Assembly (NCBI GenBank): GCA_016793925.1 | Contig: JAEULH010000083.1 | Span: 1 to 64,000, forward strand | DNA: 64,000 nucleotides | Direction: 5' to 3' | Source of the DNA: Rhodospirillales bacterium | GTDB lineage: Bacteria; Pseudomonadota; Alphaproteobacteria; Rhodospirillales; Defluviicoccaceae | In this document: positions 54,576 to 59,304 of the stretch, one piece after another | Layout of the letters: each line of letters begins with the position of its first letter | Numbering within the stretch: the stretch's first letter is position 1 | Made by a program: the position numbers and the translations under genes | Notes under the pieces: model-generated | What the model was told of the DNA's origin: nothing | What the model saw: only the letters and a program-made list of their open reading frames with translations | The model's database searches: none

Positions 54576-55949
54576 TCACCGCCTGAACGTCGCGGCGAGT
54601 TCGAGATGAGGTGACCAGAGGAACTGGTCGACCGGCGTTACCGTTTCGAGGCGGAAGCCGCCGCCCGCGAGAAGCCGCGCGTCGCGGATGAAGGTCGCAA
54701 GATTGCAGGAGATCGCGACCACGACGGGCACGGGCGAGTCCGCGAGAAACATCGCCTGGGCGCGAGCGCCGGCCCGCGGCGGATCGAACGCCACCGCGTC
54801 GAAGCGGCGGAGTTCGTCCGGCTCCAGGGGCCGGGCGAACAGGTTGCGCCGTTCGGTCGTGAGGCCGGTTTTGCCGCGCACGGCCGCCGCCAGCGCCGCC
54901 ACGGCCGCTTCATCGCCATCGACGGCATGAATCCTTTTGCCTGCGGCGGCCAGGGCGAGAGCGAACACGCCAAGGCCGCAGAACAGGTCGGCTGCGGTAT
55001 TTGCCTGCGCCATGGCTGCAAGCACGGCCTGCGTGAGCGCGGCCTCGCCAAGGCCGCTCGCCTGAAGGAAGGCGTCGGGTGGAACGGCAACGGCGCTCCC
55101 GCCATGAACGACGGCGACCGGCCGGTGCTGGACGACGGGTTCGGCCGGCGCCGCCGGTTTCCGCCGCCACGAGAGCCGGGCCAGCCCTGCTTCGCAGGCA
55201 AAGCATGACCACCGTTCGCGCAGGCTGGCCGACGGCGGGTCCGACCAGTCGAAGACGACATCGAGGCCGCCATTCAGGCGGCTGATTGCGACCCGCGTCT
55301 TCCCGCCGCGCGCGAGCGTCCCGTCGAGAAGCTCGCGCAACATGGGAACAACAGCCGCGATGTCGGGATCGAGGACCGGACACGCCGACAGGTCGATTAC
55401 ATCGTTGCTGCGGGCGGCGGCAAATCCGACGCAGACCCGCGACCCCGCCGCAGCCGCTCGGACAGCGGTGAAGGTTGCGCGCCGGCGGGCGCCGGGCGGG
55501 ATGCGGACCGGCGACGCCACGGACGCGTCGCCGAGACCGGCGCGATCCAGCGCCAGCCGCAGTCGCCCCAGCTTCCAGGCGATGTAGTCGTCGTCACCCA
55601 GATGCTGCAGGGCGCAACCGCCGCAGCGGGCGAAGTGAGGGCACGGCGCTTCGGTCCGGCCTGGCCCTGGCCGCAGGATGGCGACGATCTCCGCCATCCG
55701 GCCGTCGCCGTGGGACGGACCGATCCGGACGCGCAGCCGATCGCCGGGCAGGCTCTTGGCAATGAACAATTTTTCTCCATCCGGGCCGACCGCCAGGCCG
55801 TCGCCGCGGCTGCCAAGGCCGGTGACCTCGACCTCGACCGGCGCCCCGCTGGACGCTTCGGCGGCTTGCCGCTGCCGCACCCGCCGCGATGGCCGCTTGG
55901 TTTGGGCGGAGCCTCGCCCGGTCGAGCGCACCTTCCGCATGTGCACCAT
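54576..55949 (-). CDS. TrmA/RlmD-family RNA m5U methyltransferase with TRAM domain
   Basis: A 457-residue SAM-dependent enzyme that methylates uridine in rRNA or tRNA. After a basic tail, residues 40-105 are a TRAM RNA-binding domain (VEVEVTGLGSRGDGLAVGPDG). The iron-sulfur cluster motif CPHFARCGGCALQH follows. The C-terminal catalytic part has AADLFCGLGVFALALAAAGK, FDPPRAGARAQ and the catalytic Cys motif ISCNLATFIRDARLL, with FLWSPHLELAA at the end. The exact base (U747/U1939-type) cannot be told. ATG 55949 is chosen because upstream sequence is not conserved in style. Confidence 0.87.
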   Translation of the reverse strand: MVHMRKVRSTGRGSAQTKRPSRRVRQRQAAEASSGAPVEVEVTGLGSRGDGLAVGPDGEKLFIAKSLPGDRLRVRIGPSHGDGRMAEIVAILRPGPGRTEAPCPHFARCGGCALQHLGDDDYIAWKLGRLRLALDRAGLGDASVASPVRIPPGARRRATFTAVRAAAAGSRVCVGFAAARSNDVIDLSACPVLDPDIAAVVPMLRELLDGTLARGGKTRVAISRLNGGLDVVFDWSDPPSASLRERWSCFACEAGLARLSWRRKPAAPAEPVVQHRPVAVVHGGSAVAVPPDAFLQASGLGEAALTQAVLAAMAQANTAADLFCGLGVFALALAAAGKRIHAVDGDEAAVAALAAAVRGKTGLTTERRNLFARPLEPDELRRFDAVAFDPPRAGARAQAMFLADSPVPVVVAISCNLATFIRDARLLAGGGFRLETVTPVDQFLWSPHLELAATFRR

Positions 55950-56060
55950 CCCGTTGGTTTCCTTACACAGGCGATTTCGTCGCAGCGAAGCTCTTCTTCC
56001 GGCACGGTCGGAACGGCGCGGCATGCATGGCCCGCATAGCTTCGCTGCACATTTTTTGGT

Positions 56061-56089
56061 TTGCAGCGTCGATCGAGCTGCGCTATATA
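56061..56089 (+). promoter_or_regulatory. Candidate promoter of the small RNA
   Basis: TTGCAG (56061-56066) and TATATA (56084-56089) are separated by exactly 17 bases, the ideal spacing for a sigma-70-type promoter. Transcription would begin near 56096 and run into the structured region and terminator that end at 56261. The -10 is strong; the -35 matches the consensus in the TTG half only. Confidence 0.5.
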
Positions 56090-56095
56090 AGCGAA

Positions 56096-56261
56096 CGATG
56101 GTGTTGCGGTGCAGCATTCGCTTTGAGCGCAACGCCCACGAGTTTCAGAGTTTTCGAGTGCAACGCTCGAAAAAGGGGCCTGTTTCCGAACAGGTCCTAC
56201 GTCTCCCAGACGTGAAGCCTCCCTGTTGGACTTGAGCCGGGCTTTTTAGCCCGGCTTTTTT
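56096..56261 (+). ncRNA. Candidate trans-acting sRNA, AbcR (alpha-r15)-like
   Basis: This 166-base noncoding stretch lies between two minus-strand genes and has a promoter, a chain of hairpins and a Rho-independent terminator. Hairpins are TTTTCGAG/CTCGAAAA (56151-56173), CCTGTT-TCCG-AACAGG (56179-56194), ACGTCT-CCC-AGACGT (56199-56213) and the terminator stem AGCCGGGC/GCCCGGCT. The loops and single strands carry CTCCCA (56204-56208 region) and GCCTCCCTG (56217-56225), C-rich anti-Shine-Dalgarno motifs like those of the alphaproteobacterial AbcR sRNAs, which repress ABC transporter mRNAs with Hfq. The family match is from memory of AbcR and is not confirmed by a covariance model. Confidence 0.6.
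56235..56261 (+). terminator. Rho-independent terminator
   Basis: An 8-bp perfect stem AGCCGGGC (56235-56242) and GCCCGGCT (56249-56256) around TTTTTA is followed by a T-run to 56261. It is the clearest intrinsic terminator in the window and ends the small RNA transcript on the plus strand. Confidence 0.85.
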
Positions 56262-56291: not shown

Positions 56292-57104
56292 TCAGACGAG
56301 GTCGGCTGCGACCACGTCGAGGATCATCATCGCCGCGAAACCGGCCACCAAGCCGAAGGTGGATTCGCTTTCGTGGCCGTTGCCGTGGGTCTCGGGGATG
56401 ATCTCGTGGCTGATGACGAACAGCATGGCGCCGGCGGCCCCCGACAGGCCCAGGGGCAGGAAGGTCTGCGACAAAGACACGAACCACGCCCCGGTCAAGC
56501 CGCCGACCGTCTCGACGACGCCGGTCGCAAGCGCGACCAGCACCGCCTTCGCACGACTGTAGTTGAGGCTGAGGAGCGCCAGGGCGACGACGAAGCCTTC
56601 GGGCAGGTTCTGCAGGAAGATCCCGCCCATCAGCGCGAGCCCGTTGGCGACGTTGCCGCCGCCGAAACCGACGCCGACCGCGGCGCCCTCCGGAAAATTG
56701 TGCAGGGTGATGGCGAAGACGAAGAGCCAGATCCGCCGCACCGTGCTTGGCGAGTGATGTTCATGGTCGAGGAAGAAATGCTCGTGCGGCAGATAGCGGT
56801 GCGCAAGCCAGATGCCGCCCGCGCCAACGAGCATCCCCAGGGCGACGAGAACGACGCCGCCCAGCACGCTGCCGGCCTGCGCCGACCCGGCGTCGAGTCC
56901 GGGGAGGATCAACGAAAAGGAGACAGCCGCCAGCATGATGCCGGCCGATCCGCCGAGCAGGACGTCCTGGAGACGGCGCGACGCGTTCGAAATCAGCAGC
57001 ACCGGCAGGGCGCCGATGCCGGTCGCCAGGCTCGCGATCAGACTGGCGAGGCTGCCCGCATGGACCGGCGACAGGCTCGAAAAGTAGGCGACGACCGCGT
57101 CCAC
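56292..57104 (-). CDS. ZIP-family metal transporter
   Basis: A 270-residue polytopic inner-membrane protein of the ZIP (zinc/iron permease) family. Eight hydrophobic segments and the two signature helices are present: LHNFPEGAAVGVGFGG (TM4, with metal-binding His, Asn, Glu) and ISHEIIPETHG (later His/Glu motif), plus LQNLPEGFVVALA. A His-rich loop, LPHEHFFLDHEHHSP, lies between TM3 and TM4 as in ZupT-type importers. The start is GTG 57104 behind AAGGAA. The likely job is uptake of zinc or related divalent metals. Confidence 0.88.
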   Translation of the reverse strand: MDAVVAYFSSLSPVHAGSLASLIASLATGIGALPVLLISNASRRLQDVLLGGSAGIMLAAVSFSLILPGLDAGSAQAGSVLGGVVLVALGMLVGAGGIWLAHRYLPHEHFFLDHEHHSPSTVRRIWLFVFAITLHNFPEGAAVGVGFGGGNVANGLALMGGIFLQNLPEGFVVALALLSLNYSRAKAVLVALATGVVETVGGLTGAWFVSLSQTFLPLGLSGAAGAMLFVISHEIIPETHGNGHESESTFGLVAGFAAMMILDVVAADLV

Positions 57105-57161: not shown

Positions 57162-59195
57162 TCAGGACGCCTGCTGCGCGGCGCGCTGGGCGATCACGTC
57201 GTCGGCGAGCCGGCCGGTCAGTTCCTGCAGGTGGTCGAAACTCCATTCGAAGGTGCCGACGCCAAGCGTCGCCGAGCGCAACTCGATGATCAGGTCGTAC
57301 ATCTCCGCCTGGGGCAGCAGCACCGCAACCTCGTCCCAGCCCTGCCAATCGGTGCGCGCCTGAAAACCGAGGATCTGGCCGCGACGGCCGCTGACCAGGC
57401 GCTGGATGCGCGAGGTGAACTCCGAGGGCACCGAGATCTTGAAGTTGAAGATCGGCTCGAGGATGACCGGATTGCATTTCGGCATGCCCTCGCGCATCGC
57501 CTGCTGCGCCGCCTTGCGGAAGGCCATGTCCGAGCTGTCGACGGTATGGAACTGGCCGTCGGTCAAGGTCACGGCGAGGTCGACCACCGAAAAGCCGAGC
57601 GGTCCGCGGTTCATGTATTCGCGCACGCCGGCTTCGACCGCGGGGATGTATTGCTTGGGCACCACGCCGCCGGTGATCGAGTCCGAAAAGGCAAAGCCGC
57701 TGCCGCGCGGGAGCGGCTTGATGTCGATGTGGACGTCGCCGAATTCGCCGTGGCCGCCCGACTGCTTCTTGTGCCGGGCGTGCTGACTGACCGCCGCGCG
57801 AATCGTTTCCTTGTAGGGAATCTGCGGCCGGTGCGAGACCATCTGGACGTTGTAGCGATTGCGCAGGCGGTCGAGCGCGATCGCGAGGTGCATCTCGCCC
57901 TGGCCCCACAGCAGCATCTCCCCGGTGTCGGGGTCGTGGCCGAAGGACAGCGACGGGTCTTCCTCGACCAGCCGGGCGAGCGCGCTGGTGAGCTTCACTT
58001 CGTCGGCGCGCTGCTCGGCGTGAACCGCCAGCGCGAACAACGGCTTCAGCGGCGGCGGCCATGGCTGGCCGCCGAGTTTGCCGCTCGCGGAAAGCAGGGT
58101 TCCGGTCGTCGCGTTGTCAAGGCGGCCGAGCGCGACCACCTCGCCGGCCTGCGCACCGGTCCTCTTCTCCAGCCGGGCGCCGAGGGGACGATTGACCCCG
58201 CTCACCCGCTCCCCGTTCAGGGTCATGCCGTCGGCGATCTCGCCGCGCCAGACCCGAACGTACGACAGCTTGCCGGTGTGCGCGGCATGGACGCTTTTGA
58301 AAATCCGCGCGCACGGTTCGCCGGCATCGGGAACCTCGAGCCGGGCCGCGGTCACCGCCGGTTCGGGCGCTTCGTGCCGCAGCGCCTTCATCAGCCGGGT
58401 GACGCCGTGCATGGACTCCGCGCAGCCGAAGAAGACCGGCACGATCAGATCGTCGGCAAGGTCGCGGCTCAGACCGGCATAGATCTCGTCGGTCGGCGGC
58501 ACCACGTCTTCCAGGAGCTTCTCGAGCAGGTCGTCGTCGAAGTCGGCGATGGCCTCGAGCATATCCCGGCGCGCTTCCTGCTCCTGCTCGGCCGCGTCCT
58601 CGGGCAGGCTGATGAGCTCCGAGCGCTGGCCCGGCGACCAGCGGAAGGCGCGTTCGCTGACGAGGTCGACGAAGCCGGTGATCTGTCCCTGCTTCTCGCG
58701 CAGCGGGATCTCGCGCAGGACCAGCGGCCGCGCCGACAGCGCCTGCAGCGCCTCAAGCGTGGCCCGCACGCTGGTTTCGGCCTGATCCATCTTGTTGATG
58801 AAGACGATGTGCGGAACGCCGTTATCGTCGAGAAAGCGAAGCAGCGGCGCGACCGTCAGGACCTTGTCCGGCGCCGGCTCGCAAACCAGAACGGCGATGT
58901 CGGCCACAAGCAGGGCGCTGTAGGAGTCCTGGATCAGCTCGATGTTGCCGGGGCAATCGAGGAACGTCCAGGTCTCGTCCAGATATTCGGTCACGGCCAC
59001 GTTGAGTTCGGTACTCATCTGCCGCGCGCGGGCTTCCGCGGAAGCATCGCCTACGGTGTTGCCGTCGCGCACGCTGCCCTTGCGCGTGGTCGCGCCGGTG
59101 AGCGACAGGATGCTTTCCAGAAGCGAGGTCTTGCCGCTGAGGTAAGGGCCGACGAGCGCCGCGCAGCGGGGCGGCGAAGGCGATTTCCTGCTCAC
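57162..59195 (-). CDS. Elongation factor G paralogue (EF-G-like, altered G3 motif)
   Basis: A 677-residue GTPase with EF-G domain order. G1 is GPYLSGKTS (residues 16-24), G4 is NKMD (134-137), and G3 is DCPGN (80-84), where normal EF-G has DTPGH. The catalytic His that activates water for GTP hydrolysis is thus replaced by Asn. Domains II-V follow, including the EF-G-like GQGEMHLAIALDRL, GGHGEFGDVHIDI and DSSDMAFRKAAQQAM. It resembles the alphaproteobacterial EF-G-like proteins of unknown role rather than canonical fusA. GTG 59195 with GGGAG upstream fits better than the frame's earlier start. The gene stands alone. Confidence 0.87.
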   Translation of the reverse strand: MSRKSPSPPRCAALVGPYLSGKTSLLESILSLTGATTRKGSVRDGNTVGDASAEARARQMSTELNVAVTEYLDETWTFLDCPGNIELIQDSYSALLVADIAVLVCEPAPDKVLTVAPLLRFLDDNGVPHIVFINKMDQAETSVRATLEALQALSARPLVLREIPLREKQGQITGFVDLVSERAFRWSPGQRSELISLPEDAAEQEQEARRDMLEAIADFDDDLLEKLLEDVVPPTDEIYAGLSRDLADDLIVPVFFGCAESMHGVTRLMKALRHEAPEPAVTAARLEVPDAGEPCARIFKSVHAAHTGKLSYVRVWRGEIADGMTLNGERVSGVNRPLGARLEKRTGAQAGEVVALGRLDNATTGTLLSASGKLGGQPWPPPLKPLFALAVHAEQRADEVKLTSALARLVEEDPSLSFGHDPDTGEMLLWGQGEMHLAIALDRLRNRYNVQMVSHRPQIPYKETIRAAVSQHARHKKQSGGHGEFGDVHIDIKPLPRGSGFAFSDSITGGVVPKQYIPAVEAGVREYMNRGPLGFSVVDLAVTLTDGQFHTVDSSDMAFRKAAQQAMREGMPKCNPVILEPIFNFKISVPSEFTSRIQRLVSGRRGQILGFQARTDWQGWDEVAVLLPQAEMYDLIIELRSATLGVGTFEWSFDHLQELTGRLADDVIAQRAAQQAS

Positions 59196-59304
59196 GAGCG
59201 TTCTCCCGGGGCATGGCTTCTTGGCGGGCGCGCGAACGCGCCACATTACGTTGTGGCGTCAGCCTACCGCCTCAAGGCAGTGAATCAAGCGCAAAACCGG
59301 ACGT

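Follow-up and report, generated by a model that had tools for sequence, protein, structure and literature searches.

The 64,000-nucleotide stretch of DNA analysed here (the window) carries, on its plus strand, a small RNA (sRNA) gene, the product of which is very likely a trans-acting antisense repressor, activated by LsrB and assisted by Hfq, that takes the place of AbcR1, in locus and in regulation, outside the Rhizobiaceae and forms a distinct RNA family. An earlier note, made from the letters alone, had placed such a gene between a methyltransferase gene and a ZIP transporter gene, and direct sequence reading, fold and conservation confirm that it is real. LTTR-driven sRNAs with anti-Shine-Dalgarno (anti-SD) segments are a known kind; the present family and its class-wide spread appear to be undescribed. 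At the gathering thresholds, Rfam searches of the whole window returned tRNA only and no family for the sRNA. In a sequence search of the open-licence literature, where absence is not proof, the core of the sRNA was printed in no paper, and no paper in that literature joined LsrB/VtlR with SorX/SorY.

Location and predicted structure of the sRNA

The sRNA gene occupies positions 56095-56261 (+), about 167 nt, as delimited by fold, covariance model and conservation, with its 5' end predicted from the -10 element; the window genome contains one copy. With a predicted folding energy of -75.8 kcal/mol (z = -4.83), which none of 200 shuffles equalled, the RNA forms four hairpins ahead of the terminator, one more than the earlier note had counted. 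The 5' hairpin SL1 (56100-56136, +) is variable, and relatives carry a GTTGCAnnGCAGC hairpin at its position. It is followed on the same strand by SL2 (56151-56173; helix 1) and SL3 (56175-56198; helix 2), both of which show both-side changes in all 7 modelled pairs, and by the near-invariant SL4 (56199-56213, +; helix 3), in which 99.8% of cells are paired. The earlier note had described a CTCCC and a CCTCCC motif as unpaired. The former (aSD1, 56203-56207, +) lies within SL4, where pairing of its first CT with AG is possible, leaving CCC as the strict loop, whereas the latter (aSD2, 56218-56223, +) is indeed single-stranded, being held in the unpaired linker GAAGCCTCCCTGTTGGACT (56214-56232, +), which is common to SorX, SorY and BjrC1505. 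The intrinsic terminator (56234-56261, +) comprises a stem at 56234-56257 and a T6 run ending at 56261, as perfect as had been claimed, with compensatory changes in 6/6 modelled pairs (helix 4). A hand-specified structure was used in place of the one that RNAalifold derived from a MAFFT alignment, in which linker and terminator were wrongly paired.

The alignment of 89 distinct sequences has 96.6% of its cells paired and both-side changes in 22/27 pairs. The covariation score is 0.446, compared with 0.154 for shuffled alignments and at most 0.113 for slid partners; the score gains from an alignment that had been fitted to the structure, but the gap to the controls is still large. Conservation and covariance of the hairpins in relatives, the lack of which had been named beforehand as grounds against the gene, are both present. 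That the region is instead a small-protein gene or the 3' UTR of a neighbour has a practically negligible probability. An open frame runs through it in the window, but in the homologs the spacing of SL1 and core is distributed among the three frames (32, 31 and 21), so the region is not coding, and conservation tracks the helices rather than codons. Nor is it the 3' UTR of either neighbour, as one of them is transcribed divergently and the other convergently.

Conservation and spread of the family

A DNA match to the sRNA is found in 50/60 relatives, and hardly any variation is seen in a 27-nt core, CGTCTCCCAGACGTGAAGCCTCCCTGT, among Rhodospirillales, Acetobacteraceae, Azospirillum, Thalassospira, Caedibacter and other groups. 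Exact copies of the 29-mer CTACGTCTCCCAGACGTGAAGCCTCCCTG are present in at least 116 GTDB genome stretches, its carriers including Thalassospira, Nisaea, Azospirillum, Roseomonas, Elstera, Reyranella, Pelagibius, Caenispirillum, Caedibacter and Defluviicoccus SSA4. R2, the covariance model built here for the family, detects the sRNA in 107/240 alphaproteobacterial genomes (a broader model, R3, is considered below). The term orphan, applied to the sRNA by the earlier note, does not fit: the family is widespread, and loss of the lsrB linkage is confined to the lineage of the window. Six genomes (L020, L023, L059, L154, L168 and L204) contain two or three tandem copies, some with a box of their own each, as in AbcR1/AbcR2.

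Promoter and predicted LsrB/VtlR box

A predicted LsrB/VtlR box, ATGCATGGCCCGCATAGCTTCGCT (ATGCATGGCCCGCAT-AGC-TT-CGC-T), which the earlier note had not reported, is located at 56023-56046 (+), about 70 nt upstream of the predicted start, and differs from the consensus ATGCR-N5-YGCAT-N3-TG-N3-T by one mismatch (TG to TT). The GCAT-N3-TG-N3-T part of this consensus corresponds to the LsrB/VtlR box of Brucella, Agrobacterium and Sinorhizobium (PMC7486931; PMC8844928), and the nfeR1 promoter bears TGCA-N6-GCAT at -72 to -60 (PMC10746234). TGCR-N6-GCAT was found within 260 nt upstream in 92/129 homologs, with about 0.04 (0.038) expected for each. Columns that were no part of the search are conserved as well, namely an A before the motif, an R after it, and then a TG and a T in the GCAT-N3-TG-N3-T spacing. 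Genome-wide, the box at one mismatch or fewer gives 4 sites, as against 0 for the reversed control. The exact box is missing from about a quarter of the homologs, which, like the mismatch in the window's own box, counts against the LsrB-activated reading.

The pair of -35 and -10 elements proposed earlier, at 17-base spacing, is present in the letters, as TTGCAG (56061-56066, +, by direct sequence reading), a 17-nt spacer and TATATA (56084-56089); the -35, however, is poor, a further point against that reading. The -10 element CTATAT (56083-56088, +) exactly matches the alphaproteobacterial RpoD -10, which has been quoted as CTATAT (PMC8844928). TATA lies 59-61 nt past the box in 33/45 homologs having TATA in that interval, the distance in the window being 60 nt. 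A scan with the sigma70 consensus found no promoter site, as would be expected of an activator-dependent promoter.

Ancestral linkage to lsrB

The window genome encodes 10 LysR proteins, one of which is the LsrB ortholog; its gene, on contig 89 (75362-76249), follows trxB, and its best relative in the PDB is LsrB of A. tumefaciens (9HH1, 317 bits). Two points count against a role of LsrB here: lsrB and the sRNA gene are on different contigs in the window genome, and A. tumefaciens LsrB was called unique to Rhizobiales in a 2025 paper (PMC11975290). Despite that description, an LsrB ortholog in a trxB-lsrB pair is observed outside Rhizobiales. Across the class, LsrB orthologs (E <= 1e-55) occur in 140/240 genomes and in 99 of the 107 that carry the sRNA. 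In 78 of these 99, the sRNA gene lies downstream of lsrB on the same strand within 5 kb, at a distance of 500 nt or less in 72 of the 78 (median 181 nt), and many relatives show the order lsrB, sRNA gene, convergent EF-G-like gene.

This linkage is ancestral, and its remnants are seen in the window. Upstream of the sRNA gene and divergent from it, an RlmD-like 23S rRNA uracil methyltransferase gene (54576-55952, -; NCBIfam RlmD below cut-off, Pfam PF05958) occupies the place that lsrB has in most relatives. Downstream, the convergent gene for a ZIP (ZupT-like) zinc transporter (56292-57104, -), rare at this place in relatives, now stands between the sRNA gene and the EF-G-like gene (57162-59246, -; NCBIfam EF-G over cut-off), which is the retained ancestral 3' neighbour. 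In two genomes of the same family (L005 and L006), the available stretch holds the EF-G-like gene but no lsrB, while lsrB is at the locus in L003, L004, L007, L009 and L018. In the window lineage, lsrB has moved away and the RlmD-like gene has taken its place.

Comparison with AbcR1 and AbcR2

The sRNA had been likened to AbcR in the earlier note, and the likeness is borne out for the way of working and the position of the locus (box, site downstream of lsrB in most relatives, anti-SD layout, hfq gene), but not for membership in the ar15 family. In S. meliloti, R. leguminosarum and Shinella, according to records from a plasmid collection, trxB-lsrB (lsrB being annotated VtlR in one of them) is followed by the same box and two ar15 genes; this order shows that AbcR shares the locus and box of the sRNA. 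AbcR1/AbcR2 (ar15, RF02345; Rhizobiaceae and Brucella) likewise lie downstream of trxB-lsrB/vtlR with an LTTR box, and likewise place anti-SD motifs both in a hairpin and in an unpaired segment, followed by a terminator; Hfq use and transporter targets would be expected in common by analogy. With regard to the features that characterize ar15, adjacency to lsrB/vtlR is found in the above 78/99 family genomes and not in the window genome, the upstream LsrB/VtlR box is present as a predicted one, and the two anti-SD motifs are present in letters different from CUCCUCCC/UUCCCCUC.

By contrast, AbcR1/AbcR2 have two hairpins ahead of the terminator, in place of four, and lack the 27-nt core, and the sRNA is usually a single copy; no match in sequence or structure between the two is detectable in either direction. 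RF02345, the covariance model that the earlier note had suggested running, did not match the sRNA at E up to 10, nor was its cut-off (40 bits) exceeded in any of the 240 genomes, while the same model gave 97-127 bits on the AbcR pairs of Sinorhizobium, Rhizobium and Shinella as positive control. Conversely, the ar15 genes of Rhizobiaceae were not matched by R2 or R3 with the filters off. As neither model matches the other's genes, we do not file the sRNA as ar15, AbcR-like as it is and at AbcR's locus.

It is conceivable, though somewhat doubtful, that the sRNA is a diverged AbcR that escapes an overly narrow Rfam model. The identical locus, box and anti-SD layout would fit with this, as would two members that have UUCCUCCCAGU in a hairpin loop like that of ar15 SL1, and the lsrB-downstream RNAs of other groups, which form low-scoring intermediates. 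The mutual silence of the ar15 model and R2/R3 speaks against it, as do the 3' module, held in common with SorX/SorY and not with ar15, and the restriction of the bridging loop motif to 2/173 members. Several R2-negative genomes have a box, C-rich segments and a terminator directly behind lsrB, and R3 gives low-scoring matches at several such places. Eleven lsrB-downstream stretches recognized by neither ar15 nor R2 (L249, L250, L252, L254, L256, L257, L259, L264, L278, L280 and L289), with a box or part of one, C-rich motifs and a terminator, are possible intermediates.

Relation to SorX/SorY and other known RNAs

Membership in the SorX/SorY family of Rhodobacterales is another alternative, which we consider unlikely. 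It draws on the 3' part of the sRNA, which includes the CCUCCCUGUU module and is matched at E 8e-8 (RF02784) and 1.9e-7 (RF02651), and on the resemblance of the lsrB-linked RNA in Paracoccus and other Rhodobacterales-like genomes to SorX/SorY. The scores nevertheless fall short of gathering (37.9 bits vs 46.6 for SorX, RF02784; 42.6 bits vs 111 for SorY, RF02651), and SorX/SorY lack SL2, SL3 and SL4. What they have in common with the sRNA is the 3' module CCUCCCUGUUGGACUU with a GC-rich terminator, the lsrB linkage in Paracoccus, and transporter targets under oxidative stress, SorX acting on a spermidine and SorY on a malate transporter (PMC8307010). Unlike the sRNA, they have known promoters dependent on RpoH/RpoE, as reported for R. 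sphaeroides SorY/SorX (PMC8307010). In L325 (Paracoccus), L290 and L223, lsrB is immediately followed by a SorX/SorY-like RNA, which links the singlet-oxygen RNAs to the AbcR locus.

BjrC1505 (RF02356) has the GCCUCCCUGUUA linker ahead of its terminator, as does the sRNA, but differs in its 5' part, with no upstream box seen, and its model gives the sRNA only 14.4 bits against a gathering threshold of 50. A copy of ar8 (MmgR/SisA, RF00519) is a very improbable identity. The model scores 25.7 bits, a CUCCCU single strand is held in common, and ar8 and ar15 belong to one Rfam clan; however, gathering is 41, and a true ar8 is encoded elsewhere in the same genome (contig 86, 16953-17021, 50.4 bits), on which two grounds we exclude it. 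MmgR/SisA, an Hfq sRNA repressing many mRNAs, resembles the sRNA in having the single-stranded CUCCCU ahead of the terminator, and differs in its neighbour and in that an LsrB box has not been reported for it. NfeR1 of Sinorhizobium (ar14) likewise has an LsrB box and several anti-SD motifs and is activated by LsrB (PMC10746234), but it is Hfq-independent, carries CCUCCUCCC in each of three hairpins and has no reported linkage to lsrB; CCUCCUCCC is absent from the sRNA, and the Rfam searches gave no ar14 match. Finally, RFMSmelC671 of S. meliloti resembles the sRNA in its published description (PMC3927594), which places CUCCCUGU in an unpaired stretch that separates variable hairpins from a terminator.

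Proposed mechanism and wider meaning

Taking AbcR, SorX and SorY as guides, we infer for the preferred reading, an LsrB-activated repressor, the following course of transcription, LsrB binding, Hfq binding and target repression. The redox-sensing LysR regulator LsrB/VtlR would bind the box, some 70 nt ahead of the start, and activate a sigma70 promoter whose -10 is good and whose -35 is poor. The resulting RNA of about 167 nt would terminate at 56261 and be bound by Hfq, the gene for which is present in the window genome, and would expose two C-rich anti-SD segments, CUCCC in SL4 and CCUCCC in the next single strand. Pairing of these with ribosome-binding sites may lower the translation of transport and metabolism mRNAs according to the redox state. 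Such targets are suggested by analogy with SorX, SorY and AbcR, the last of which represses transporter mRNAs (PMC8844928). Inside the window, the best target pairing (-21.1 kcal/mol) is at the 1% level of random 36-mers; as in-window pairing is not above random, which counts against the preferred reading, no target is claimed, and the TRAP transporter of the window, offered by the earlier note as one type of target, is at most a candidate.

We further consider it rather probable that a module of LsrB and an sRNA is ancestral to most Alphaproteobacteria, and that its box-controlled anti-SD RNA has been rewritten into AbcR, SorX/SorY, BjrC1505 and the present family, which have been described as unrelated or missed. 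AbcR RNAs have been studied as a speciality of rhizobia and Brucella. If the proposal is true, the same redox-to-transport RNA circuit would operate in a sizeable fraction of Alphaproteobacteria, Azospirillum, Thalassospira, Acetobacteraceae and Caedibacter among them, through an RNA family missing from Rfam; separately named RNAs would be joined by locus and promoter, offering a test case for the conservation of circuit wiring amid turnover of RNA sequence.

A second RNA behind a predicted LsrB box

The window genome has a single exact match to the LsrB box, and it precedes a second RNA, on contig 5 (7472-7677), which is found in 27/60 relatives, with a box in most of those inspected. It consists of a hairpin, CGGATGGTTCCCCTGCCATCCG, and a terminator, GCGCCCGGTTGACCCCCCTGACCGGGCGC, and is flanked on one side by a membrane-protein gene (YccA/Bax-inhibitor-like by eye) and on the other by a response regulator gene.
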